Under the pieces are notes generated by a model that ran no database searches, was not told where the DNA came from, and was given only the letters and a program-made list of their open reading frames with translations. From Chaetoceros tenuissimus (Eukaryota > Bacillariophyta > Thalassiosirophyceae > Chaetocerotales > Chaetocerotaceae), in NCBI GenBank assembly GCA_021927905.1, contig BLLK01000003.1:1-20481 (forward strand): a stretch of DNA of 20,481 nucleotides, given 5' to 3'. Of the stretch, positions 3,199-20,481 are shown piece by piece. Every line of letters begins with the position of its first letter. The stretch's first letter is position 1. The translations under genes and the position numbers were made by a program.

Positions 3199-3623
3199 TA
3201 AAAAATTTTCTTTCAAGTTCCATACAAGGTAGCTAGCCTTCCATACAACCAAAATTTCAACTTTCTATGAGCACACTGCAATAAAGTTATTGTTGGCTTT
3301 CTTCCTGACACCTTTTCTGACGTGTCTAATTTCAATGGCCTACATTTTACATTCGTCATTTCTCCTATGTACACCTATCTCTGATTCAAACAATTTCCAC
3401 CTTCGTACGTCATGCTTATCAGTATTACCTTGCCTGTCAAGTGCATCATACATTGCTACCGTAGAATTCATACTGTAGACTGGCGGCGCTGTCTGGCAGA
3501 TGCTTACTGACACGGTGTCTTCAAGCGTTAATTAGACGTTCCGAAGATTCTCCTGATCGGCATTTATTGATCCTCAATTTTCCATTTTCTTTCTTATCCC
3601 TATTGAACTGGAGGTGCGAGTTG
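3199..3623 (+). repeat. Direct repeat B, copy 2
   Basis: Second copy of the 425-bp block at 564-988. It closes the A-B-A-(1.7 kb)-B arrangement, which reads as a tandem duplication of an A-to-B unit in which one copy lost, or the other gained, about 1.7 kb. Confidence 0.95.
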
Positions 3624-5228: not shown

Positions 5229-5330
5229 GGTTCCATGATTTATGTTGGGTAGCTATAGATGTTTGTCGAAGCCGTAAATGTAAATGAAGAGAGAGAGAAT
5301 ATTCATGAATGAAACATGTAATGAATAAAC

Positions 5331-5441
5331 TGGAGGGGGGTGACGTAGGTGTGGGGCGGGGTGGGAGGGAATTGGAAGAGAAAGAAGGGGAGAGAAGAGG
5401 GACAGAAAAGAGGTATGAAAGGGGAGGGGTAAGAGAAGTGT
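5331..5441 (+). other. Purine block with G-run cluster
   Basis: The plus strand is nearly all A and G here. Its left part (5331-5370) carries several runs of three to six G separated by short gaps, which fits a G-quadruplex-capable sequence. The minus strand is correspondingly pyrimidine-rich. Confidence 0.6.
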
Positions 5442-5466
5442 GAATAACTCAAAATTATTTTGAGAT

Positions 5467-5644
5467 ATTTCATGTTTTCCAATACAAGCTGTATTGACAC
5501 GTCTCAAATTGGGTATTCTTTTTTCAAGGTTTCCAATTCAAGCTACATTCGTAGTATTTCAAGTTTTCCAATACAAGCTGTATTCACAAGTCTCAAATAT
5601 GGTATTCATATTTCAAGGTTTCCAATACAAGCTACATTCGTAGT
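5467..5644. repeat. Two-copy 89-bp tandem repeat
   Basis: Units 5467-5555 and 5556-5644 are close copies. Each contains two half-units of the form TTTCAAGnTTTCCAATACAAG followed by CTGTATT or CTACATTCG. The repeat sits about 30 bp beyond the Rep-helicase stop codon, in the 3' flank of that gene. Subterminal repeats occur in some rolling-circle elements, but this is position only, not proof. Confidence 0.85.
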
Positions 5645-5673
5645 GTTTTTTTGATCCTATTTATATATTCAAT

Positions 5674-8600
5674 TTAATTAGCTTTATACCGTTTCGAATG
5701 GTTTCTAACAATTTGATACAAGTTTTCTTGACAAGTAACATTGGCTTGTTTTTGATTTAACCACTGCAATATGTTCGTTCGTTCATCATCTGTTGTGTTC
5801 AAATTAGTGAGAGATTCTTTTTGATCTAAAAACATCGTCCAAAATAACCTCTTTTTGACTTTCGTGTATATTTCATTTGTTAGTTGTGGTTCTACAAACT
5901 CATTAGCATTTTCATTGTCCAATTTCCGCTTCACACTTTTTCTTTTGTGGTGTATTTCACGTATTCTTGTGTAAAGTTTAAACTTGCTTTCATAATTGAA
6001 ATAAATAGCAGAATTGTTGACGTCATTTGTTCCCATTGAGGTAGCTCTACTTATTCCAGTGTACAGTAAGCCTGGATTGTTCCCTTCGAATGCTGTTTTA
6101 CCTGGATTAAAAACCATTATTGTAACCGGATGCCCTTCTCCTATTGATTGACCTTGAACTTTATGTAAAGTTCTTGCAAATGCAATTTCTAATGGAACAT
6201 ATTTCATTTCACAACATCTGAGATTGCATTTTGATCTATTTTCTAGCAATGTTTGAATTGGAACTGGAACATATGTTGGGTATCGGTTGTCCCAAGGTGG
6301 ACCACAGTAATTGTCAAAATCTACAATTACAAACAAAGGCAAGTTCCCAGTCAATGGACTTTCTCCTTTAGCAAAGCGAATATCAATCACTGTTCCCAAT
6401 GACCCATTAAATAATCCCTGTAAAGGACATTTGTTTGTTGTTAGTGAAACCCTCGCTCCTCTCGTCAGTACCGTCTTTGCTTCAATTAAAGTTGTCAATT
6501 TGAAATGAGATTTGATTGGTTTGTCTAACTTTGATTTTGGAGTTTTGTGCAATTGATATGGAAATTCCATCAATGGATTTGTCTTGTCTACAATTTCTCG
6601 CAGTTCCTGTTCATTATGTGTGAATACCTCTTCCTTGGTCGTGTAGACGAATAGAGCCTTGTCTTTGATTTGGAGTCTGCGTTCTTTTGTAATGTCTTCG
6701 TTATCTAAGTTCAATCTACAAATCGCCATACTCTGGTCTTTTGTCAACCCAGACTTTGTTCTAAGAGTTTCATTGATTTCTTGCAACATTTCCTGATTAG
6801 GAACTATTCTCTTGACTTGTCGTAATGATTTGACTTGTTGAACAGTTGACTCAAGTATTTGTGCTCCTTTCAAGTCGGATCCAGTCATGGCATCATTTTT
6901 AAAACCTGTTTTTGAGAATAGATCAAAGGCTCCAAGCTTTTTGACTGGTGGCAATTGACTGTCATCGCCTAAAATAAGAATAACTGGGATTCCACCAAAT
7001 ATTTCTTCAGTATTACCTGTACCATGTGCAAATTCACTACAATTTCTGGAGATTGCATTGAGAAGTTCCAAACTAAGCATGCTACGTTCATCTATAACAA
7101 GAAGCAGCACGTTTCTCAACAATTGAAATAGTTTTTCTTTTTTGTATTGAGAGAGTTCTTTTGTTGGGTCATCAATGTCAATACAAAATAGAGAATGAAT
7201 TGTTTTTCCAAAGATGTTGTATGCCGCGCATCCTGTTGGCGCACATGATTCTGATACTTTCACATCAAAGATTGACTCAATTGCATTGACAATAACCTTG
7301 ACTAAGAAACTTTTTCCAGTTCCACCTGCCCCTCTAACAGTAAGAATCAACGGTTCAAATTTTCTAGAAGGTTCTTGAGCCTGGACTTCAGGAAATTCCA
7401 TCCATTCTTTTATTTTTTGAAGCACTTTGAATGTTATTTCCTTCTGTTCTTCATTGTCTCCTATGTCGCTAATTACGTATGGCTTGTTTGTAGAGCTGTT
7501 AATGTATTTTTTTTTCTCTGATGATTGCTGCAAAGCCATAGCGTCTATTGTGTCATCAAGCCAAGTAGGACCAGATTTATTGTCTGGGTCAAAGTCATGA
7601 TGGATTTCATTGAAGTCATATCCGTCGTCACCTTTGTAGAAGTCACTAAGTTTGGAATGATCAAACCTTGCATGACTTACAAGGTTATATAAATTTGTTG
7701 ACTCTTCGTTCAGTTCTCCAATGTCTTTGTTATGGGCTTCTTGAGGGGCACTTCTGTACAGTTTTCTTTCAAATTTATGCTTGGCGATACAATATTGCAA
7801 CTTTACAGACTGTGGACAATCGTCAGACTCAAGGAATTGATAAAATTCATCAATTGGAGTTTTCTTCTTCAATTCGAAATCCAATCTGTTTCTATTGTCC
7901 CATTTCTTATGCAACACCAGCGTAGCAATAGCATAATGATTAGTTGGAGGAAATATGGGACTCGAATTGAACCCAATAGGATGGAGATATCTTTGTTTAG
8001 TTTTGGGGTCAATCCTTTTCAATCTCATATTGTTGTTATTGTTCAAATCATTTCCTTTGTCAAGAATTTTCATATATTCAACGAATGTAAGGTTTTTTTG
8101 AGTATCATGTCTAAACTTGTATTTCTGAATTGGGTCAGTCATTTTCTTTTTTTCTTTCATAAGCTTCTGCAACCCAGTGAGATTTATATGTTTAGCGCTT
8201 TCCGTGCACCAATATAGATCACACCCCATAAGTTCAACAGACGCTTCAGGCTTTGATACTATTCTGCTTGTCAACAATGAGTTCATAGATTTTCTTAACA
8301 TGGCATTCATGTTCATTCGCTCCGATCTAACCCCGCAATTTTCATATGTGCTAATTATAGCTGCTATTGAATTTCTCTCTTCCTGAAATGAAAGATTGCC
8401 TTTTGTACAGTATGAAGTGATGTAACCATTGATTCTTGCAATATCTGCAGGAACTATATTGTTTGGATCAGTAGCATAGACGATGACTGAGACATCACAA
8501 TTTGCTCTCCATGATTCCAACATTGAAGTAGATGTTTTTTTGAGTCTGGAATTATTTCTTTTCAATTTCAGAATATGAATATCCTTTTTGTAGTCTTTTT

Positions 8601-11258
8601 CAATGGAAGCTGTTTCCTTTGGTGATTCAAAGCCAGGTGTACTTGTGTGGTCGTTAGGAATAACTTCTTTACCAGCTCCCATTCTGCATGTTCTCGCTGT
8701 CCCATTACTGAGTAACAAAAGTTAGAATTTTGTTGTTAGTGGTGTGAATAATGTGCTTATTGACTTACGTTGTTTGAGGACCTAAACAGTAATCAGAACA
8801 TTCATGCATGTGTACGTCATAACAAAGTTGGCACATGTCGAGTTTGTGGTTTGACGCAGAAAAAAAATTGGTGGATAGAGGCGACTGTTTTGATAATAGG
8901 TTAGGAACCCTATTTAACTCAAAAAAGTTTAGAGGTAGTTTGTACTTACTGAACTATCGGAACTTTCGCTTGTTTCTCTTAATTTTTGTTGTTCTGATTC
9001 CTAAAGAAAAGTAGGTTTAGTTCTATTCATTTAATGTAAATGGTGTAATGATACAATTTCACTTACCAGTTTTTCTTTATCAAAATCTATTTCCTCTGTT
9101 AAAGACAAAACATTTGTGACATATTCTTCCATTAATTCTGCCCCTAATTCTTCCTTGCGTTCAATACAAAACGTGTGATAGAATTCAGTCAATAGTTCAT
9201 GATCTGCCGTGATTGCTACCATATGCGCATGAATTTGCCCTCTCCCTTTTGCAAATTCAAACCTGAGGTAATAGTGTTTGATATTGAAGATGTTTTTTCC
9301 TATGGTTTCAAGCCAATTGTCTAATTTCTCTTGAAAGAATACTTGAACACTTGCTGTGTATTTATCCACTAGTTTTGCTTGAATTTTTCGTTGTGATTCT
9401 TCATCTCCCTCTTCCAATGACTGTAACAAATGTTCATCTTCAGTGTTCATAATTTTCTTCTTTAGAAAATGCAAAAGATCATTCCACCAGTATTCTGCGC
9501 ATGAAAATGTCATGAAAAGGGTTGGAGGTCCATGTCCCTTGTCTAAATGGTAGGCCACCCAACTGTCCAATTCATGCTTTCTTGAGCGCCACCAGCCATC
9601 ACTCCCTCTAATTTTTTGAGCCGCAAAGTTTTGGATCTTTCCAACAGTTGAGAAGTTGCCATTCTCTATTTCTTCTTTAATGTCGTCAACAGTTTTGTTT
9701 TCAGAGAACATGGACTTGAGAAGTGTAAGAGAAGACCCATTGTTTACATGTCGTTGAATGAAATTAAATGCATGGAAGGTAAAACATGGATCATGTTGAA
9801 ATCGTCCATCTTCCCACAGTAACAATAGTTTTGTCCACTCAATTGCTTTTGAACGTTCAGATTTCACTTCATGGGAAATATCACCATATCCACCTGGAAA
9901 AAGCCACGGGTAACACTTTGCAAAACAATCTTCTTCTGTGTATTCGTCTACTGGGTTTTCGTCTGTTTCTGGCCACATAATTGTAGATGGTGTTGTCTTT
10001 TTTGCAGTTGCTTCTGCTAATTCATCAATGACTTGTTTACTTTCGACTGAGAACAATGAATCCGCTCGATCGGATGCAACCCCACACATTTCCATTGTTT
10101 TTTCTTCTAGTGGATTTACTGTTTGCTTTTTAGCAACAGAACAGTTGCTGTATTTTTCAGACAATGTATGATTTTCCTTAAAGTTTGTGAATTGCGCTTC
10201 TTCTTTATCACCCATCCAATTTAAGTTCTCCTCGACAATTGTGATGTCCCGATAAAATCTATTATGTTTCTTCAACCAATTTAATGCTGCTATTACTTTC
10301 TTTCTCCGAACTTTGAATGTGTCGAAGGTTTGCTGGTCTTTATTCACCGACAGTCTCTTAATTTCAATATAATCCAGTTCACTACGAGGTAACTGCAAAC
10401 AAATACTTGCAATATCTCTCTTGAACATAACAGTATGTCCACATAATCCTTTTCAAATGAATTGTGGCGTCAGTTTATTTCAAGAAATTTGTTTGATTCA
10501 ATTTTTAATGGTTACATCTTACCGAATTTCCCTTTTCCAATATGTATACAAGGAATTAAGAATGACTGTGTTTGTATCAGCATTTTCTCTGTCACAGTAA
10601 GATCTCTGAGTTCTTCAGGCAATTCATAATGAGCTTCTTTGTATTTATCTTCTTTGATCTCATCATCATCATACCAAACTGGGAACATACGAAAGCATTT
10701 CTCTTTGTCTCTGTTGTTCTTGCGACAGTCAGAGCATTTTTTGGTTTCACCACCATTGAATTTGTTCGAAATAAAGGCTCCTTTACATACTGAACATTTG
10801 TGTTGATCAATTGACAGGTTTCTTGCTTCGAAAGCAATCATTTGTAGTATTTCGTGTTGTCTAGATCTCGAAGATTGAAAAAACAGATCCCTTGTTTCAT
10901 CTGAAATAGATAACTGCGGATGATCTTCTTCTGCTTGCAAATCAATAAAGGCTTCCATCATTTCATCCAGTTTGTTTTTACTGTCTCTCCACGTAGATTG
11001 CATCAATGGATCTATTTTTCCATTCAGGAAATATTTGACCTCTCCATAGGTTGCGTAATTTAGGTATAACTCATATACTTTTTCAAAGAATAACGTTGGC
11101 TTTCTACCAACTTTTTTTTTCCGAAACTGTAGGATTTGTTGTACATGCTGAGATCCACAAAAGTCTACTATCTCATGATGTTGGCATGTACTCTCACGAA
11201 CTCTTTTCTTTCGCTTTGCTTTGGATACAGATTTATAATGAGATGCAATATTTTTCAT
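5674..11258 (-). mobile_element. Helitron-type rolling-circle transposon, coding core
   Basis: The span is that of the Rep-helicase gene, the only part that can be assigned securely. Neither terminus was found: no convincing minus-strand 3' hairpin followed by CTRR lies left of 5674, and no matching TC start was identified to the right. The element may extend over the neighbouring genes up to 13840 or to about 20400. The coding region shows no frameshift or stop, so the element is recent or still under selection. Confidence 0.8.
5674..11258 (-). CDS. Helitron Rep-helicase, five exons, 1772 aa
   Basis: Rolling-circle replication initiator fused to a Pif1-family helicase; it would nick and unwind DNA during transposition. 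Exons (minus): 11258-10523, 10448-9067, 9000-8950, 8884-8769, 8707-5674; introns 74, 66, 65 and 61 bp; total 5319 nt. N-terminal zinc-finger cysteines are at about 155, 158, 175 and 178. They are followed by the Helitron segment ELRDLTVTEKMLI and, across the first splice, GLCGHTVMF. HUH motif: GQIHAHM, His 652 and 654. A Cys/His cluster (CQLC, HMHEC, YC, TC) spans exons 4-5. Then come RNNSRL...ESWRANCDV and the two catalytic-type tyrosines in GYITSYCTKG (857 and 861). Helicase: Walker A GAGGTGKS about 1221-1228, Walker B VIDERSM (Asp1301, Glu1302), later LHKVQGQSI and YTGISRA. The length and domain order fit Helitrons. A strong 3' splice site just upstream of the ATG suggests a spliced 5' leader. 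Confidence 0.93.
8885..8949 (-). repeat. Rep intron 3, shares the intron motif
   Basis: A 65-bp GT-AG intron between exons 3 and 4. In sense orientation it has GGGTTCCTAACCTAT just before the acceptor, so the motif overlaps the likely CTAAC branch site. The same motif and neighbouring sequence appear in introns at 12866-12959 and 16421-16527. Confidence 0.8.
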
Positions 11259-11263
11259 ATGTT

Positions 11264-11286
11264 CTATGTGAAAAAAAAAATGTTAG
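11264..11286 (-). promoter_or_regulatory. Strong 3' splice site just upstream of Rep ATG
   Basis: Reading the minus strand there is CTAAC, ten T residues and CACATAG, then five bases (AACAT) before the Rep ATG. That is a complete branch site, pyrimidine tract and acceptor. No good donor lies in the 41-bp gap to the upstream gene's stop codon, and joining from that gene's known donors would not be in frame with the Rep ATG. The site could serve a 5'-leader intron or spliced-leader trans-splicing. Confidence 0.6.
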
Positions 11287-11299
11287 TTTCATTTAGAAT

Positions 11300-13840
11300 T
11301 TAGAAGAAGTTATTCATATTGCGATCATCAAATTGAGTCTTGAAAAGAACCTGTGCAGCCTCTCTGGTATAACCCTTGAAAAAATAGGTTGCGAATGCAG
11401 CAATGTCTTCATCTACTAGAAATTCATCAAGTTTCAATCCAATTTTTGAGACAATAGGAGTACTTCCAAGATCTTGTGAAAGATTGCATCTTGCATCAGT
11501 GATCATCGCTCCGTACAATCCGCCTCTTGCTCTCTGCATTGCAGCACGGAACACTTTTGGCAGACCATTTTTGATCAAGTTGAAGGATGGATTTTCTTCT
11601 TTGCCAGCGGCCTTTGTCCAAAGTTCATTAAGCACATCATCAACTTGCAGAGTATTCTCTGGACAAACATACTCCCAATAAGCTGCAATCTGATAGCATA
11701 GGAACCAATCTGGAGAAGCTAGAATCTTCTGTATTTCAGCAATCAACAGTGGTACTTCATTGTTGGCATCCTGAAGATTGGTAGCTTCCAAATTAACACG
11801 GAGAATCGCTTGATACTTTGCATATGTTCTGAATGATACGAAATCGTTATTCAAAAGCCCTGGGTGAGCTCTGATTCTTCCTGAGTAGGCATGGGATTCC
11901 AAAAGCCTCTCTGTGATGTTTGACATAGATCCAACCTCAAATTTATAGTCATCTTCATCCCAAGTGGAATAACAAGTCTGCCAAGATTTGATAAAGACTG
12001 GAGCTCTAAATTCAAACATGTGTTTGTCTTCGCCTCGGTTCAATTCATTGATGGCTGTAATGCCCAGGACAACTTCAAATTTGTCACTACTGTGATCACT
12101 TTTGATCGGTACAGACGCCTGGACATGACAGTATTTCTTTCCAGTGGTAGTTGTTTTGGGAGATGATTTCAACTTTTTGAAGAAGAATTTGCCGGTTGTT
12201 GTCTTCATTGGAGTTGATGGAGATTCCTTCGACGACTTGGACGGAGAACCAGAAAATGAACAGGATCTAGATGATGCGGATGATGCAGTTCCTGACTTCG
12301 CTGATGTTTTTGATGCAGTTCCTGACTTTGATGCTGATGATGCTGTTCCCAATGCAGATGCGGATCTTCCGGAAGATGTTGAAGATGCAGATGGAAGACT
12401 TTGACTAGGTGAATCCTCACTATTCTTCTTCGCTTGTTTGTTAGCACTATTATCCATACCGAGTTCCCTTTTATTGCTTCTTTAAATCAAGTAAGATTCT
12501 ATTTGGTTCGAAAAAGGTAAATAAAATAGCTATGCACTTACTCCATTTTGAAAAGTGATACCAAATCAACACCATTCAAACCATTTGGCCCTAGGTCAAC
12601 ACCAACCTTTTTCAGGTTTTCAATGAGTTCATTATTATATTTTGCATCAATTTTTTGTTCATGCTTGGTTTGAGCCAAGTGAAACCCAGGAGCAAATCCT
12701 CCACTCAATGTTTTTTCCTCGTTTCCAACAGTACTTGCAACAGGTTTCTCTTCAAGTTCCTCATTATACTCACCTTTCTGCTCAAGAGATTGCTGGATAT
12801 CTTGATTATGATTGACATCAATTGCTGCAACCTTTAGTATCTTCGGAGAATTCAAAAGAGATCCCCTATTGAAAATGATAAGTTAGCAAACCATAGGTTA
12901 CGAACCCAAATATCTCAAAACGATTTCTATCTATCTCAGGTTTGTAACCTATTACTTACTCTTCTATGTCAACCTTGAAATATGTAACTTTTCCTTCAAA
13001 CTCTTTGTTGATAGTCCAAAAACCAGTTTTCTGGTCTACATCCATGTACTTATTCAAGATAGACAAATAAGTGGACAGATACTTAATAGAGTCCCTTCTC
13101 TTTTCTTCGGAGATCTTTGGAAATTTGATTTCATCATTCTCCAGAGTCTTTAGAAAATCCTTCAATTCAATAGATCTGATACAATGGAACAATCCCTTTC
13201 TAAAGAAATCCGCATAGACAACTGCGAGTTTGTTGATTTTCTCATGCTTGGACTCTAAAGCAGCTGCCTTCACAATGGAGGCAATAGACTCATCTCCGGT
13301 TTTTGCAAAGGCCTTGCCAAGTGCAACAATAGGAGCAAAAAGCTCTTTGAACTCATTATCCTTTTTGTCCTTGTTCATTTCCTCAATACTAATGAACTCT
13401 GGAAGATCCTCTATCAAGAGCTGAGTAGCGACAAGTTCTTTCTTGGTTAAGCTGGGAGTGATACGATTGTTAAGTCCAAACCATTCACCTACAGGATAAG
13501 TGTTGGTTGCAAAAGAGTCACTAAGAGCTGCAGAAAGTTCGTTGAGCTGATCGTCAGTGTAGGTGTCCAACAACGCCTCAAGAAGTTCCTTTCTAGAATT
13601 CTTGAACTCACACCCATCCAAAGAAGAGCAGATTTCCTGAACAAAAGCTTCCTTCCCAAAGTCCGCTACCTTTCTAGAATCAGTTGAAAACTTAGGAACC
13701 TCAAAGGTCTATGTATGTGTGAGTATAAACACATATCAGAAAAACTTAAACTACTTCATTGTTCGTACCTTTCCATGTTGAATGAGGAATTTGTTCGCCT
13801 TCTCAAGGAGCGCAGCAACATAAGTTCCGTTAACTTTCAT
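11300..13840 (-). CDS. Unknown two-domain protein with Ser-rich linker, about 774 aa
   Basis: No family was recognised. Exons (minus): 13840-13769, 13708-12960, 12865-12542, 12479-11300 (the last acceptor is AAGAAG, so 12476 is an alternative); introns 60, 94 and 62 bp. The lengths sum to 2325 nt, a whole codon number, and every join is in frame. Residues 1 to about 380 are mostly helical, Lys/Glu-rich and soluble-looking. About 404-480 is a Ser/Ala/Thr linker with repeated SGTAS-type units, ending in a basic KFFFKKLKSSPK stretch. About 500-774 is a second globular region with aromatic residues and MQRARGGLYGAM. No signal peptide or membrane segment is visible. It lies 41 bp upstream of the Rep gene, same strand, and diverges from the 14239 gene. 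Alternative: two genes, with a stop at 12538 and a new ATG at 12457; the strong GTAAGTG donor overlapping that stop favours one gene. Capsid or nucleoprotein-like roles are guesses only. Confidence 0.75.
12866..12959 (-). repeat. Intron 2 of the 774-aa gene, terminal inverted repeats
   Basis: A 94-bp GT-AG intron. It contains ATAGGTTACAAACC near the donor and GGTTCGTAACCTAT toward the acceptor, 14-base inverted repeats with one mismatch, able to fold most of the intron into a hairpin. Its plus-strand sequence aligns with the sense strand of the 16421-16527 intron at roughly 37 of 47 positions, that is, in the opposite orientation relative to its gene. Confidence 0.85.
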
Positions 13841-14238
13841 CTTTGATATGCCTTAAAGTTTTGAAATTTCTTTTTTTATGAAATGAATCAGAATGTTGGA
13901 AACAGAGTCGCTATGAGCAAAATGTTCCTCAACGCATTGAAGTCTACCACGTAGGTTTTCTCAACGCATATAGGCTTATGTAATAGAACAAAATGTTTTT
14001 CTCTATGCGTTGGAAAACACATGTATATCCTCTGTCTCAGTAATAAATCGCTGGTTTTTCTATACTCATTTTTGGTTGGCTCATTTTTGTTTGCTATGTG
14101 TACCTTCAACTAAATTATTCTGTTACATGAAAAAAATAGTTTTTAAGTAAACCTATGTGGCTGGTAACAACATGTCGCCTCTTTCCAGTTCAAACGCAAC
14201 ATGACAGATACAACTGTATACTATCTCTAACTACTATC
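13841..14238. promoter_or_regulatory. Divergent intergenic region with CAACGCAT boxes
   Basis: About 400 bp separates the starts of two divergent genes. CAACGCAT occurs at 13930-13937 and 13962-13969, and inverted (ATGCGTTG) at 14005-14012. The latter two extend to a 9-bp inverted pair CAACGCATA/TATGCGTTG. The arrangement fits shared regulatory sites. Toward the minus gene there is an A-rich CATAAAAAAAG stretch near 13871-13881 that could act as a TATA-like element. A CTCTTTCCAG acceptor-like site ends at 14188. No experimental support is available. Confidence 0.5.
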
Positions 14239-15471
14239 ATGCCTTTCTTTCCACTTAAAAAAGATACCACTTTTGATCAGATCTTCACCAAGAAATCTCT
14301 CAATTTGCATGTTTCTGAACTTCTACTCCTCTTGGCGATTAAGGAAAAGGTTGGCTATATTCAACCAAACGTCAATCACCATTTTGTGAACGACACTACT
14401 ACCTATCGTGAACTAGAGAAGGCCTTCCGTGACTCTATTCAAGGAAAGGGAACTGTAAGCGTTGAATATGATGCTGTTGTTGGAAGTCTCAAAAAGCCTG
14501 ATCATGCTGCAGCCTCTTTAGAGCTTCCGATGTATCATGTTGTGTCGGAAGACAGAATTGATTCTGTTGCGTTTAAATTGGAGGATGCCAATTATGTAAA
14601 AAAACTGATCAAGAATTGGAGAGAGGGAGACATAAAGAAGTTGCTCTCCGAGTTTAAAGGAAAAAATCTTCCATTCAAGACTCTTCTAAAGAAGATTCCT
14701 TCTGCTACTCTTGGTGCCATCTTTGCATTCTTGGACGGTTTACATAGATCCAACTGCTTGGTGGACATGGCCCTGGAAAGCGATCGTCTTTTCAACGCCA
14801 TCCTAAAGAGCTCAGTATATGTTACAGTCAATTTGTATTCATTGAAGATCAATCATCTCATTAGAAGCGAAGACAAGGAACTGTTGCTTCAAATTGTTCA
14901 GGACAAATCTGGTAATCTTATGGTTCAGAAGAAAACCACTGTTGGACATACAGTTGTAGATGCATTCTCTGTTCTATCAAGAGCCATTCGTAATAATGAC
15001 AAAAATGCCTACTTGTCTATTGCGACCTTTGATGTTCAAAAACGCGGCAAAAAAGTCTTGAGTCATGTTTTGCTTAATTGGGCAATGGGAGAGGGCAATT
15101 CCGACAAAATTGATGACCTCAAAACTCGTGTCTATCTAGAGAAATTCTTTAAAACCTTTTTCTTCAATTCAGGCTTTGAAGAATGGGCAAAACAAGGTCT
15201 TCCAATGCAATACAAGCAAGATATATTGAGAAATGATGGGCAATACAATGTTACTGAAGTATTTGAAAAATTCTTTTCACATTTCAAGTGGGAGATTCTT
15301 TTTACTCTTCGTGCTGATTTGTCTACAGTTAGAAGCATAATTGTTGAAAGTGGTCCAAGTGGGTTTGGAAGAAGCAATCGCATTTTTGGCGAAACTAACT
15401 TGCCATATGCGAATATGCTTTTGATTTCTATGGCGAGACTCTGCTTGTTGACACCGAAAATTCGTGAATAA
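14239..15471 (+). CDS. Unknown protein, first segment of the large plus-strand gene, 410 aa
   Basis: The chosen start is the ATG at 14239 (MPFFPLKKDTTFDQIF); an in-frame ATG at 14155 would add 28 residues of poorer composition. The product is a soluble-looking, mixed helical protein, Lys/Leu-rich, without signal peptide, membrane segment or recognised motif. The frame ends at a TAA (15469-15471) but stays open beyond it to a GTATGT donor at 15525, and splicing to 15581 keeps frame with the next exon. So this is either exon 1 of a 1480-codon gene with a nonsense mutation at codon 411, or a separate ORF followed 12 bp later by another. It is transcribed away from the 774-aa gene. No function can be assigned. 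Confidence 0.7.
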   Translation: MPFFPLKKDTTFDQIFTKKSLNLHVSELLLLLAIKEKVGYIQPNVNHHFVNDTTTYRELEKAFRDSIQGKGTVSVEYDAVVGSLKKPDHAAASLELPMYHVVSEDRIDSVAFKLEDANYVKKLIKNWREGDIKKLLSEFKGKNLPFKTLLKKIPSATLGAIFAFLDGLHRSNCLVDMALESDRLFNAILKSSVYVTVNLYSLKINHLIRSEDKELLLQIVQDKSGNLMVQKKTTVGHTVVDAFSVLSRAIRNNDKNAYLSIATFDVQKRGKKVLSHVLLNWAMGEGNSDKIDDLKTRVYLEKFFKTFFFNSGFEEWAKQGLPMQYKQDILRNDGQYNVTEVFEKFFSHFKWEILFTLRADLSTVRSIIVESGPSGFGRSNRIFGETNLPYANMLLISMARLCLLTPKIRE

Positions 15472-15483
15472 TCAATCTCGTAT

Positions 15484-18400
15484 ATGACTGAAATGCAAGG
15501 TATTGGAATTTTGTCCAAAGAAAGGTATGTGAGTTTCATTATTAATAGGTTTCAACAGATGCATTCTAACAATATATTAGATTGCTTTTTGTTACTGGAA
15601 TAGCTGATGATGCAGCTTCTATTCTTTGGAAATTCTTCAAAAATTTCAATGGAAACCCGAAGCTAATATACCAAACCAAGTTAATCCTGCGCACAAATAT
15701 CGAGAATTTGATTTTGTCCCTCTACACAAAAGAAATTTTCGAAATGCTCGGAAAAGACTTCAAGGTAAAATATCAAGTACCTTACAAGTTGAAGTTTGAG
15801 CAGACTCTTTTGGTCTCCCTCTGGGAAACGGACGTCTCTCTCCCTCAAGATATCTCTCTCATAGTTTCATTCCTAGACGCGATTGCCCTGTCATACGGCC
15901 GATATCTACTATATTTTCTAATGGCTTCCCCATATTTTATTGAGGAGATGCTACCAATACTATCATCGCTATTAGGCTCAGAAACTACGAACAAAAAATC
16001 TGAAAAGCTAGGCGCTATGATCGAGAATGCTATAAATGGATGCGAAGAACAAAATCTCAGCGAACTACATCATCAATTTGAAATCAATACAGAACTCCCT
16101 ATTCTGGCAGACCTAAATCTGACTGCAAAGGATTTTGTTAAGGCTGTACATGAAATTTCTCCAGAAATGATACTGAAAAAGAGCCAGATTGACAAAATTC
16201 CTGGTTACATTAAATGGAACCCTTTCTATCCAATTCCATTTATCATATCCCAGCTCCAAGCTCTATCTGATTCTAACCGAATTAGTTTTCGTGGAGACAA
16301 AAGACATCTATTCCCAAAGCTGTTAGACAAGATGAGAGAATTTCACAACAACGACATAGCTTTCAATGAGGAAGTTTCTCCAAAGAAGAGGAAGTCTTCT
16401 CCCGAATCAACCGAAACAAGGTAAGTATTGGTATGGTCTCTTAACCTATTTGTTGAATATCTGAATATCTCAAATTGTTTTTTATCTATTTCGGGTTCAT
16501 AACCTATCATGGCTTTGATTCAAACAGGAAAAAAAGAAGAAGTGGAAGAAGTAAGAACGTTTCTGCAGAGAATCTAGAATCTGAGTTCAATAAGGATACT
16601 GATGATGAGGATGATAATAATGATACAATGGACAACAAGCGTGCACCATTTGAATATTCCTTTATTGGTAAACCAGTTCAAGCAGATGTAAAAGTTGAAT
16701 CCGATGATGATGAACATACCGAGGAAGTTGTTGACAAATCGCAACAGGAAATCGATGGTAAACCGAAACCAAAGAAAAAAAAGACAACTCGGAAACTTCC
16801 AACCAAGAAAAAGAAAGGGAAAACACGCAAAAAGAGTTCTGATGATTCAAGTGATGATTCAGATGATGGTGATGATGTAGTTGAAGAACCACTTCAACAA
16901 ATTACCAGAATATATGCCAATATGGAAGAAAAGAAATATGTGCTCGAAAAGGTTTACCGTACCTACAATTTCCTTTTCCCGGACCGACAACACATTTGTT
17001 CAAATTACTGTTCAAAAAAAGCTACGTAAGTCAAAATGACTTTTTGTTTCAATTTCCATTAACATATTTCTAACTACATCAACTCAGTGATGGTCAACGA
17101 GGAACTTGTCAAATGGACAATCAAATGGAAATATCAACTAATGAAACAACAGGTTCAACCCAACAGGAAGTTCAACAAGAAATAACTGCAGGCGTGGATG
17201 GTGAAAGCCCAGAAAGTCAACAGCCTCAAACAAGTAAGGACCAAGAGACCGTACAAACGCAAGAACTTCAACAAGAAATTACTGCAGGCGTTGATGGAGA
17301 AGATCAGAGACAAATTGAACCAGAAGATGAAGAACATCATGGACAAGAAAAGGAGTCTGAGACTGTAGAAAAAAATACAGAAGTAGAATATCAAGAGAAG
17401 CAACAACCTCCAAATGAACAAGAGCACAAACCAAATACAGAAAACGAAGAGACTCCGTTGTATGAGAATCAATTGAACCAGTTCACCACCATGGCAGAAG
17501 TGGCAACAAAGATTTTCTTCCTTCGACAAATGAATAAGAAAAAAAGAGAATACATCTTTAGCTCGTTTCCATCAGTACTGTCCGAAACAGTTTTCGATAC
17601 AGTATCACAGAGATCTATGTTTCCATTAAGCAGGCTAGATTCTGTTGGTCCATTCATGGATCAATATCTTCTGAAACTCAGATTGTCATTCAGTGGTCCT
17701 GTTTCGATTGAAGACAAGCTATTCGGTTATGTGAAGGATAGAGTACAATCCATGCAACACATTCAATTGAAGTTGCATAGTATTCTTGCAAAGTTCCCCT
17801 TCTCCTCAACAGCATTTTCCACCAAGGTTATGCATGATCACTACTACTACGAAGGATTTTTTGATCTTAAACGAGATGTTATATCCACATTTTTGACACC
17901 TTTAAGACAACCAAGAAAGGTATCATTCGACACGAATATTCCCCAAGAGAGATTTGACCAAGAGTTAACCAATACGTTTCACTTTGAACATGCAGAAAAG
18001 AAAGGTCATTTGGTTAGACCTTGGAATCGATTTGAATATTTGGTCCTTGACAATGCAAGATTCTACCAGGAAATATTTATAGAGAATAGTGTCATCTCAT
18101 GCAGAAATTTAATTAAATTGCCAACGAGAGATGAATTCATGAGAATAAAGCTTTACGAAGAACACGACAAAATGTTCTTGGAGGAATTGAAGTTTGACAA
18201 ACTGTTCAAACTAACCACTATTGACAACAGAGTTCAAGTTTCACCCTATTCATCAGAGACTGGGTATCCACGCTACCATGACTATTTCAGAATTACACCA
18301 CCTCTTTCTTTAGACGAATACAAACGTTTTAATTGTATCAAGATAGAAAATGTAGTTGCGGAAATTATTGGAGTAGATTGGGGAATTATTCATAAACCAT

Positions 18401-18903
18401 CAGAAGAGATTGGAGAAGAGAATGAACAGTGGTTTTGTTGCTCAGACAGAGTCGAATTGTTCAAAGCAATCTCAGTTGATCCACATCTATTTGATGCAAA
18501 TAGCGATGATGAAGATGAAGATGAAGATAAAAATGATAGTGGAGAGAAAGACAATGAAGATAGTGGAGATGAAGATAGTGCAGAAGAAGACAGTAGTAGT
18601 GATGAAGATAGTGCAGATGAAGATGAACAAGGTCAAGAGAATGACAAAGACAATGAAAATGAGAACTGTGAAGATGAACAAACACAAACCGTCGATGATG
18701 ACTTTACATTTCGTCGAATAGTAAAAAAAGAAGAAGAAGAATACATATACACATTTACGACGACTGACGAGAAAGGTAAAAACCCGAATATATATGAACT
18801 TCAATTTGGAATAATTCATTCGAAAAAAGACATTCAATTTTATAATTTCGACGAGGACATATATGACCTACATCAGTTTCATCATAAGTTCATTCAAAAT
18901 TAA
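15484..18903 (+). CDS. Unknown large protein with Helitron-type Cys module and acidic tracts
   Basis: Exons: up to 15524, 15581-16420, 16528-17025, 17088-18903; introns 56, 107 and 62 bp, all phase 2. An in-frame ATG at 15484 could start it alone (1064 aa); otherwise it continues the 14239 exon. Exon 2 encodes a helical domain with a hydrophobic stretch (ALSYGRYLLYFLMAS). Exon 3 is disordered: acidic runs, a Lys-rich block (KPKPKKKKTTRKLPTKKKK) that looks like a nuclear localisation signal, then at its end HICSNYC. The module is completed in exon 4 by TDGQRGTCQM. Exon 4 continues with a Gln/Glu-rich tract holding a 32-residue tandem duplication (ITAGVDGE twice, 96-bp period). A roughly 330-residue globular region follows, then an Asp/Glu/Ser tract (about 18500-18690) and a folded C-terminal tail. 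No enzyme motif was seen. Nuclear DNA- or chromatin-associated function is inference. Confidence 0.75.
16421..16527 (+). repeat. Intron 2 of the plus-strand gene, shares the intron motif
   Basis: A 107-bp GT-AG intron (GTAAGTATT to CAAACAG). It carries GGGTTCATAACCTAT near the acceptor, preceded by a segment (AATATCTCAAA, TTTTATCTATTTC) matching the plus strand of the 12866-12959 intron. Confidence 0.85.
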
Positions 18904-18926
18904 GTTAAATCGTCTAATCTGATCAA

Positions 18927-19961
18927 TTAACATCCCAACAACTGCGTAATAAGGAAATTATTTGCTTTGATTGCAAATGATGAACTATGACTCAGTAAAT
19001 AATCAATAGGATAAAGATTCAAATCATCTTTCTCAGCGAACACATCCAAGACATCTTTTTTTTCCACCAAACGTCGAAAATTACTGAACTCGTCTACGTC
19101 GCCATGAATACATATATAGTGTAGCATCTTACGAATTCTTCCTTCGAACATTACCTTGACGCCTTTACCATTCTTGATCAAAAAGGACATAGAAGCACTT
19201 AATTCTCCATATTCCCCGTGGTCATAGAAGTCTTCGTTAATTTCTTCTTCCGATGGAGAAATAATCGTAGTATTAAAGTATTCCATAAATCTTCTCTTTT
19301 GGTAATCCCTTTTCATGATAGTAGCAACTTCGTGAAATAAACCTCTATTAACACAGTTGAATGAATCAGATGAAAATTTCAATTTTAACAAGTGAACTGC
19401 AGACATTTTTTTTGGAAGTCCCAAATCATGTGATTTCTTCAACAAACGACACAAAGAAGTAGCTGGTGTTTCGAATGTAACTACTTCCAGAACTCTAGAA
19501 GAAAGAAAACTCTTGTAATCCTCAGTTATCACAACTCCCCCAAGATTACCATTCACCATGTTTAGTTCATAACCAACCTGACAGCAATTGATGTCAAAAA
19601 ACTTGAGTAAATGATGAATACTGCTGCATTGTTTAACAAAAACAACATTCAATTTCTTGCATTTAGAATTCATAAAAATGCATCCATCCTTATCCTTCAA
19701 CGGAACTTTGTAGCTATCTTTGATTTTATAGCTCAGACTTTCGTCTACTTCAACAATCTTGTCTGTACTGAAGTCTATAACAAAAACATCAATGTCATTG
19801 TATAAATATTTCCCGTTATGCAAAAATGTAGCAAACGACCCTGCAATGTAATACTTCAATTCCTTTCCCAAGCAGTTATGAATGAATGTCTCCTCATGCT
19901 TTAGAGTACACCATACGAGCTCACAAATCTTAGATGATGAAAACACTTCATTGGTACTCAT
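18927..19961 (-). CDS. Pol-beta-type nucleotidyltransferase-like protein, 344 aa
   Basis: Single exon from an ATG at 19961 to a TAA at 18927; its stop lies 23 bp from the converging stop of the plus-strand gene. Residues 38-60 contain a GS motif (IAGSFATFL, Gly41-Ser42) followed by a DxD (NDIDVFVID, Asp56 and Asp58), the signature of the Pol-beta nucleotidyltransferase superfamily, which transfers a nucleotide to nucleic acid or protein. The third metal-binding carboxylate expected on a later strand is not evident; the matching strand reads LNVVFV, so activity is uncertain. A distinctive FDINCCQVGYEL follows at about 122-133. The C-terminal third (CIHGDVDEF, LYPIDYLLSHSS) is weakly ankyrin-like. 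There is no signal peptide or membrane segment. The absence of introns sets it apart from its neighbours. Substrate unknown. Confidence 0.7.
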   Translation of the reverse strand: MSTNEVFSSSKICELVWCTLKHEETFIHNCLGKELKYYIAGSFATFLHNGKYLYNDIDVFVIDFSTDKIVEVDESLSYKIKDSYKVPLKDKDGCIFMNSKCKKLNVVFVKQCSSIHHLLKFFDINCCQVGYELNMVNGNLGGVVITEDYKSFLSSRVLEVVTFETPATSLCRLLKKSHDLGLPKKMSAVHLLKLKFSSDSFNCVNRGLFHEVATIMKRDYQKRRFMEYFNTTIISPSEEEINEDFYDHGEYGELSASMSFLIKNGKGVKVMFEGRIRKMLHYICIHGDVDEFSNFRRLVEKKDVLDVFAEKDDLNLYPIDYLLSHSSSFAIKANNFLITQLLGC

Positions 19962-20358
19962 CTTTCATGTTATGTTGCTTGCAACATATATGTGTTGCAC
20001 CAACGAAAGAATTACAGTTTACAATCTGTAACGATAAAAATACAATAGTATCAAGAAATAACAATTTAGTCTAAAAACAGCAAACCGGAATATCACAAAA
20101 AAATTTTTAGATATTCTGATTTTTTTTAGCACGATTTCCGACACATTAGCTCAGTCGTGTCTTTCAATTCTTATTCCCACCTAATTTCATTACTCGTTTT
20201 TCTAAACAGATATAAAACACGATTGATGTTGACCGTTGAGTTTTCCTACTTTTTCTTGACAACTGTCAATATACCGTCTACTAATGTCAAAACGAGGTCA
20301 ATCGGCTAAAACTCATGTAAATTGACATATTCAAAAAGACCTTGGATTATAAGCTTAC
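19962..20358. other. Non-coding region upstream of the nucleotidyltransferase
   Basis: It starts with a perfect 8-bp palindromic arm pair TATGTTGC/GCAACATA (19971-19988, 2-base gap) right upstream of the ATG. A shorter imperfect palindrome TTGACA-AC-TGTCAA is at 20256-20269. The region probably holds the promoter of the minus-strand gene; no ORF or RNA gene was seen. Confidence 0.5.
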
Positions 20359-20398
20359 GATCATAAAATATCTTAAGTCATGAAGATATTTTATGATC
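20359..20398. other. Perfect 16-bp stem hairpin
   Basis: GATCATAAAATATCTT (20359-20374) is exactly mirrored by its complement at 20383-20398 around an 8-base loop. It is followed by an AT-rich run, then an abrupt change to GC-rich sequence at about 20435. It could be a terminal structure of the mobile unit, a small inverted-repeat element or a transcript 3' structure. CTAG occurs about 30 bases beyond, farther than is usual for a Helitron end. Confidence 0.85.
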
Positions 20399-20481
20399 CA
20401 AATTTTTTTGCCATCAGCATATATTACTAGAAGTGGCCTCCGGGTCCGGTGAGCAAGTCACCCCCCTCCAGGATAATGAAT

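Follow-up and report, generated by a model that had tools for sequence, protein, structure and literature searches.

Why should three introns, in different genes and on both strands of one short contig, carry related sequence in either orientation? The question arises in a 20,481-base contig of Chaetoceros tenuissimus (BLLK01000003.1, one of 68 contigs in an assembly of 41 Mb), which was analysed as a whole and is called the window below. The preliminary description of this DNA saw in these introns a family that an intron-generating transposon, or introner, might have left in three unrelated genes. Our data indicate that the genes are indeed non-homologous, but that all three are parts of one repeated Helitron2-like element (family F1) and not independent host genes. 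We propose, with moderate confidence, that the shared sequence is a palindromic signal borne by the Helitron, constrained in its arms and kept alike within each family, and that the three introns are slots for this signal and no intron family.

The boundaries of the three introns, one each in the genes Rep-Hel, A and C2 (Table 1), are reproduced exactly by the best open-frame models; all gene models were predicted by open-frame splicing. Each intron holds an exact sense copy of GGGTTCNTAACCTAT, as had been reported (8896-8910 (-), 12893-12907 (-) and 16493-16507 (+)), and at up to 3 mismatches this motif has 8 matches in the window against a shuffle mean of 1.12, a count that 0 of 100 shuffles reach. 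The shared sequence is a ~60-bp imperfect palindrome with the arms ATAGGTTANRAACC and GGTTYNTAACCTAT, hereafter the unit, and the 14-bp inverted ends described earlier for the 12866 copy lie at 12893-12952. The inverted alignment of the 12866 and 16421 introns beyond the motif was also borne out: they match at 36/44 positions (82%), antisense relative to their genes, and with the motif removed none of 400 dinucleotide shuffles reaches the match (one of 60 comparisons). The 8885 intron does align with the 12866 one, as had been claimed, at 24/28 in sense, but not significantly once the motif is removed (46/400 shuffles reach it); the 8885 and 16421 introns have the arm alone in common (14/15).

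The unit recurs in F2, a diverged Helitron family with an estimated length of ~18 kb. Genes A, C1, C2 and D are present in both families, and the amino acid identity to F1 is 54% for Rep-Hel, 37% for gene A, 36% for gene D and 24.5% for C2, the last from a poor alignment made without the F2 C-terminal end. In F2 the unit occupies one intron each of gene A, Rep-Hel and C2. The unit-bearing introns are 94, 65 and 107 nt long in F1 and 104, 112 and 101 nt in F2, and the remaining eleven introns in the models measure 43-74 nt. A fourth, full F2 unit is non-intronic (C32:1277272-1277332, or L045 1272-1332): it sits in the ~100 bp that separate the stop codons of the convergent genes E and D, and matches the F2 gene A unit at 83% identity over 59 bp, inverted.

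The position of the gene A intron looks old, because its position and phase are identical in F1 and F2 and because all five non-self proteins related to the gene A exon terminate at the identical residue, as expected if a GTAA donor follows, which is indirect evidence (six relatives were retrieved from the protein collection, one being the window's own; the other five are 51-89% identical). The C2 unit introns of the two families are probably orthologous, and only probably, because the N-terminal exons of F2 C2 are uncertain and the alignment is poor. In Rep-Hel, the F1 unit intron is missing from F2, and the F2 unit intron corresponds to an F1 intron without a unit. This comparison argues that the unit, or its intron, has changed place at least once in Rep-Hel, gene A having kept its unit.

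Seven units (three of F1, four of F2, with boundaries chosen by us) were compared with one another. Local-alignment scores are 25-62 within families and 18-30 between them, and the true 3+4 split is the best of the 35 possible, a test with a floor of 1/35. Within F2, 36-59 bp match at 81-87%, and each of the three F2 intron pairs keeps its match when the motif is taken out (0/400 shuffles); one of them, C2 and A, agrees at 87% over 45 bp (E 8.7e-8). Within F1 the matches extend over 44, 28 and 15 bp. Both arms are found in the units of F1 A, F2 A and F2 E/D; the other four have a single arm, in some cases with a degenerate one beside it. Three of the six within-family intron pairs match best in antisense. 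Since the best match between orthologous introns of F1 and F2 is the arm (14/14, 14/14 and 15/16) and the within-family matches are longer, the arm looks constrained and the interior looks mainly family-specific.

Outside the two Helitron families, searches of the 41-Mb assembly, which were of limited sensitivity, found no close copy of the unit. The exact motif has 17 matches genome-wide, namely 13 in F1, 3 in F2 and 1 elsewhere (C48:2243383), and its reversed control has none. At up to 1 mismatch there are 43 matches, 28 of them in F1 or F2 and 15 elsewhere, against 25 for the reversed control; thus there is no excess of the motif outside the elements. A two-arm pattern hits 8 places, all gene A introns (reversed control 0), and the F1 copies on C34 and C59 evade it through a single C-to-T change in the arm. 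In place of the many intronic copies expected under an introner origin, searching the genome DNA with each of the six unit introns (E <= 1) gave 4, 4, 5, 8, 3 and 16 rows, and all 40 fall in F1 or F2 copies, one diverged copy being known to have been missed. For F1 the genome was searched with 12866-12959, 16421-16528 and 8880-8955, of which 8880-8955 includes a few exon bases; these introns do not retrieve one another in this search, the F1 A/C2 match included. A short-word unfiltered local BLAST of the seven units against 222,561 bases (the window and L024-L048; by estimate about half of it outside elements, and a small fraction of the genome) gave no further unit, the sole other match being the known 15-mer in L038.

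If the unit is a signal of the Helitron, its arms would be recognised by a protein, encoded by the element or by the host, on DNA or on the nascent transcript, with roughly one such site per multi-exon gene. Template switching or gene conversion from one palindrome to another could keep the copies in one element alike, and could also flip or halve them; this exchange might take place during single-stranded rolling-circle copying, where palindromes could pair in either orientation. Such exchange would account for the association with the element, the free orientation, the sameness within families and the half copies. More tentatively, we suggest a dispersed palindromic control signal that is restricted to non-coding gaps, in introns or at 3' ends, occurs about once per multi-exon gene, is homogenised by template switching and has arms co-evolving with a trans-acting factor. 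If true, a eukaryotic rolling-circle transposon would contain a regulatory network of its own that is internal and homogenised.

Several observations weigh against a Helitron-borne signal of this kind. Its division into constrained arms and family-specific interiors is imperfect: the F1 C2/F2 C2 match persists with the motif removed (3/400 shuffles), F1 A and F2 A then still match weakly (18/400), F1 Rep and F2 A align at 25/28, inverted, and F1 Rep and C2 share solely the arm. The unit lies in different Rep-Hel introns in the two families, and none was found in F1 gene D, in the leucine-rich-repeat gene of F2 or in the F1 C2-D gap. A strong RNA hairpin is predicted in three of the six introns, a weak one in one and none in two, and the likeness of the unit to the terminal hairpins of the element is not significant. 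We infer the functional step (recognition, regulation) from sequence, and template switching from the pattern alone. The genome search, which is seeded, missed the F2 E/D unit (E 4e-9 in local BLAST); therefore the confinement to Helitrons is a lower bound, and diverged host copies are possible. Finally, the comparison covers two families only. No DNA of a third was found in viral contigs (protein and pattern scans) or prokaryotic genomes (protein scan), and a third Helitron-like match, C38:1691312, has no GGTTNNTAACC core within the 5 kb read.

The main rival, which we consider possible but doubtful, is a nested micro-element: a ~60-bp palindrome resembling a miniature inverted-repeat transposable element (MITE). 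The arms would be its terminal inverted repeats, and it would enter non-coding gaps of the Helitron by secondary insertion, creating no introns. Such an element would fit with arms that are conserved between families while the interiors diverge more, with the occurrence in either orientation, with the copy outside introns and with the Rep-Hel copy, which lies in a different intron in each family; diverged copies elsewhere would escape the search just as the known E/D copy did. Against it stand the lack of any copy found outside the two Helitron families, the lack of a target-site duplication evident by eye at the unit edges, and the presence of two copies at places that both families share, an orthologous intron in gene A and a probably orthologous one in C2.

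A function as an RNA hairpin for regulated splicing or intron retention, coordinating the genes of the element, is unlikely. Retention of any of the three F1 unit introns would truncate the protein early (at amino acid 274 of 774 in A, 729 of 1772 in Rep-Hel and 294 of 1064 in C2), but the 7 other F1 introns would each do so too if retained. Hairpin z-scores of -3.1 (F1 A), -3.2 (F2 A) and -3.5 (F2 C2) favour a folded RNA, and on inspection the inner stem stays paired despite sequence differences among the F2 copies. The score of F2 Rep is -1.6, and no stable hairpin is predicted in F1 Rep (-0.5) or F1 C2 (+0.5); one unit copy moreover lies outside introns. As a general explanation, a conserved RNA hairpin was rejected because it fails in two of the six introns.

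The introner origin put forward in the preliminary description, by which a transposon inserted into exons and made these introns, is already largely refuted, and we regard it as very improbable. It draws some strength from the F2 introns of non-homologous genes that pass E 1e-5 (the C2 and A introns above), from a Rep-Hel unit intron present in F1 where F2 has none, set beside an F2 unit intron that coincides with a unit-less F1 intron, and from three units that start close to the donor, at a distance of 5 nt (F2 C2), 7 nt (F1 A) and 12 nt (F2 A). At the other side the similarity is internal, stopping short of the acceptor in all but one intron: the unit ends 27 (F1 A), 30 (F2 A), 36 (F2 Rep), 20 (F1 C2) and 11 (F1 Rep) nt before it. 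Half of the within-family intron pairs match best in antisense, an arrangement excluded by a published filter (PMC9860276), the gene A intron is positionally old, and the seeded searches found no host copies. What stands of the earlier claim is the orientation-independent, palindromic and transposon-linked similarity between introns of non-homologous genes.

The motif had further been taken for a branch site. On inspection it can apparently serve as one solely in introns 8885 and 16421. In the intron of gene A, a CTAAC that lies downstream of the motif and apart from it is the likely branch site, and an antisense copy of the motif is present as well. That the introns share merely a strong, convergent branch-point sequence, as TAAC ~20-30 nt from the acceptor in the former two might suggest, is the least credible explanation, given the resemblance that extends past the motif for F1 A/C2 and each of the three F2 intron pairs (0/400 shuffles, motif removed), the separate CTAAC and antisense copy of gene A, and the lack of a genome-wide motif excess.

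Two further origins were considered and rejected. The cysteine-module exons that follow the 8885 and 16421 introns had suggested common descent as an alternative for this pair; duplication of the module with its upstream intron is unlikely, since F2 C2 has the unit without the module (its coding frame contains no CSxYC-like stretch). In F1, exons 3 and 4 of C2 do carry a module resembling that of Rep-Hel: HxCS[DN]YC ... TC[RQ]M occurs in Rep-Hel (8884-8707) and C2 (16528-17088+), with an intron at the matching place and phase. An origin of the unit from the terminal hairpins was not upheld either. Two of the three F1 units have their best F1 matches near an element end, but 5/60 and 3/60 shuffles reach these scores; for the third unit the best match is exonic, and a match of the F2 C2 unit between A and Rep-Hel is reached by 1/60 shuffles.

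Table 1. Element, genes and unit-bearing introns of family F1 in the window (positions are those of the window)
Feature	Position	Strand	Remarks
Helitron2-like element, family F1	5284..20474	- (Rep-Hel strand)	element repeated elsewhere in the genome, ~15.2 kb
Asymmetric terminal inverted repeat CTGGAGGGGGGTGAC, subterminal arm	5330..5344	+	3' side of Rep-Hel strand
Subterminal hairpin AATAACTCAAAATTATTTTGAGATATT	5443..5469		weak likeness to unit interior, not significant (5/60 shuffles reach score)
Rep-Hel gene	5674..11258	-	exons 11258-10523, 10448-9067, 9000-8950, 8884-8769, 8707-5674; 1772 amino acids
Rep-Hel intron 3	8885..8949	-	65 nt; one unit arm; F2 has no intron at this position
Arm GGGTTCCTAACCTAT in Rep-Hel intron 3	8896..8910	-	from motif search
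Gene A	11300..13840	-	exons 13840-13769, 13708-12960, 12865-12542, 12479-11300; 774 amino acids
Gene A intron 2	12866..12959	-	94 nt; complete unit
Complete palindromic unit	12893..12952		60 bp; 14-bp arms ATAGGTTACGAACC, 32-bp loop
Gene C1	14239..15471	+	410 amino acids; no Pfam family
Gene C2	15484..18903	+	exons 15484-15524, 15581-16420, 16528-17025, 17088-18903; 1064 amino acids
Gene C2 intron 2	16421..16527	+	107 nt; partial unit
Second, degenerate arm GGTCTCTTAACCTAT in C2 intron 2	16435..16449	+	2 mismatches
Unit portion matching the 12866 intron inverted	16464..16507	+	36/44
Gene D	18927..19964	-	344 amino acids from first ATG; no Pfam family; without unit
18-bp-stem hairpin	20359-20398		near 5' end of Rep-Hel strand
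Asymmetric terminal inverted repeat CTGGAGGGGGGTGAC, terminal arm	20457..20471	-	5' side of Rep-Hel strand

The element itself is delimited by its copies on C33, C34, C59, C32 and C27, which are bounded by window positions 5282/5284 and 20474-20480 and are 99.7-100% identical over long pieces (98.6% in one 218-bp piece). The copy on C33 is full-length. Those on C34 and C59 have an internal gap that joins 13393 to 16329, and those on C32 and C27 one that joins 12051 to 19615; thus an identical internal deletion occurs in two copies on different contigs twice, the joined alignments overlapping by ~3 bp, and the deleted forms therefore seem to have moved onward. The flanks vary between copies, except at two facing right ends with the same flank (C33:1012863 and C33:1016536), which represent an inverted duplication or an assembly artefact. 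Helitron2 insertion is characterised by a short T-rich target and the lack of a target-site duplication. By eye, no common duplication is seen in the flanks; one copy has an 8-bp flank similarity. The CTGGAGGGGGGTGAC arm at 20457 adjoins the element end and the arm at 5330 lies 46 bp inside the other, with hairpins at most 160 bp from both ends. In the left, non-Helitron part of the window, identical segments, each 300 bp or longer, occur as two pairs (61-360 / 987-1286 and 564-863 / 3199-3498).

In Rep-Hel, the domains Helitron_like_N (E 4.3e-18), DUF6570 and PIF1 helicase (1.2e-21) are encoded in exons that splice into a single frame. No Pfam family above the cut-off was found for genes A, C1, C2 and D in the scanned frames (for gene A, two exons other than the third), and no endonuclease or OTU domain was detected in the ten open frames scanned. 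Gene D of F1 and of F2 (L045 1351-2553) have in common GSFATxxxxxxYxxNDIDVFxI, a motif reminiscent of nucleotidyltransferases; gene D found nothing above the cut-off in Pfam and one match, at E 0.36, among the solved structures of the PDB. Next to F2 Rep-Hel lies a BspA-type leucine-rich-repeat gene (PF13306, 3.2e-18; L036 8448-9257). Three F2 copies (C54:1794k, C56:7k and C56:118k; the two on C56 assigned to F2 by their gene A and intron matches) have gene A and the C2 unit intron with no Helitron_like_N match nearby, and the C54 copy joins cleanly across the missing Rep-Hel.

MITEs are short and palindromic, with conserved inverted ends and a family-specific interior. The unit resembles them in its terminal inverted repeats, with both arms present in F1 A, F2 A and F2 E/D. 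It differs in that no dispersed copies were found outside the two Helitron families, although diverged ones could escape, and in that no target-site duplication is evident by eye.

With introners the unit shares its occurrence in similar introns of non-homologous genes, its palindromic form and its association with a transposon, and the F2 C2 and A introns lie within the threshold of E <= 1e-5. The published introner pipeline (PMC9860276) requires introns to begin matching close to each splice site, with the orientation expected, and it discards internal similarity as secondary insertion; the unit departs from this at the acceptor side and in the orientation of three of six pairs, and many genome copies were not found at the limited search sensitivity. 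The same study also recovers introners between genes; the non-intronic E/D copy is therefore not decisive against an introner. As to the recency of intron gain, the gene A intron is conserved (between F1 and F2, and at the donor of 5/5 relatives), and the F1 Rep-Hel unit intron is missing from F2. A study of mirusvirus introns grouped two or more introns below a BLAST E of 1e-5 (PMC12768974), by which the F2 pair would count as introners. The symmetrical sister (stw)introns of Hypoxylaceae (PMC8469720) are reported to be whole introns with 45-55-nt terminal inverted repeats that multiply at new gene positions. The likeness here lies in similar introns with inverted repeats and no flanking short tandem duplications, and the difference in a 60-bp unit that is found inside introns and outside them, within one transposon.

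Among the closest known systems is Helitron2, the non-canonical Helitrons that include Helentrons. F1 is alike in having Rep and a PIF1-type helicase in one protein, in its end hairpins and multiple copies with different flanks, and in its asymmetric terminal inverted repeats, the 3' arm lying 46 bp inside the end; such repeats are the mark of Helitron2 (PMC5148889). It differs in the lack of an endonuclease or OTU domain in the frames scanned, and F1 and F2 both differ in their size (~15 and ~18 kb), in genes A, C1, C2 and D and in the shared palindromic intron unit. No report of such a Helitron intron unit was found among the top-ranked papers of the open literature for the keywords used. 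A palindrome owned by an element and placed inside introns can mimic an introner family. The unit may be a regulatory site that the genes of such a large, multi-gene Helitron share, and F1 and F2 offer a compact test case for palindrome exchange in Helitron replication. Overall, F1 is best described as a Helitron2-like element carrying a palindrome that is dispersed within it and partly homogenised.

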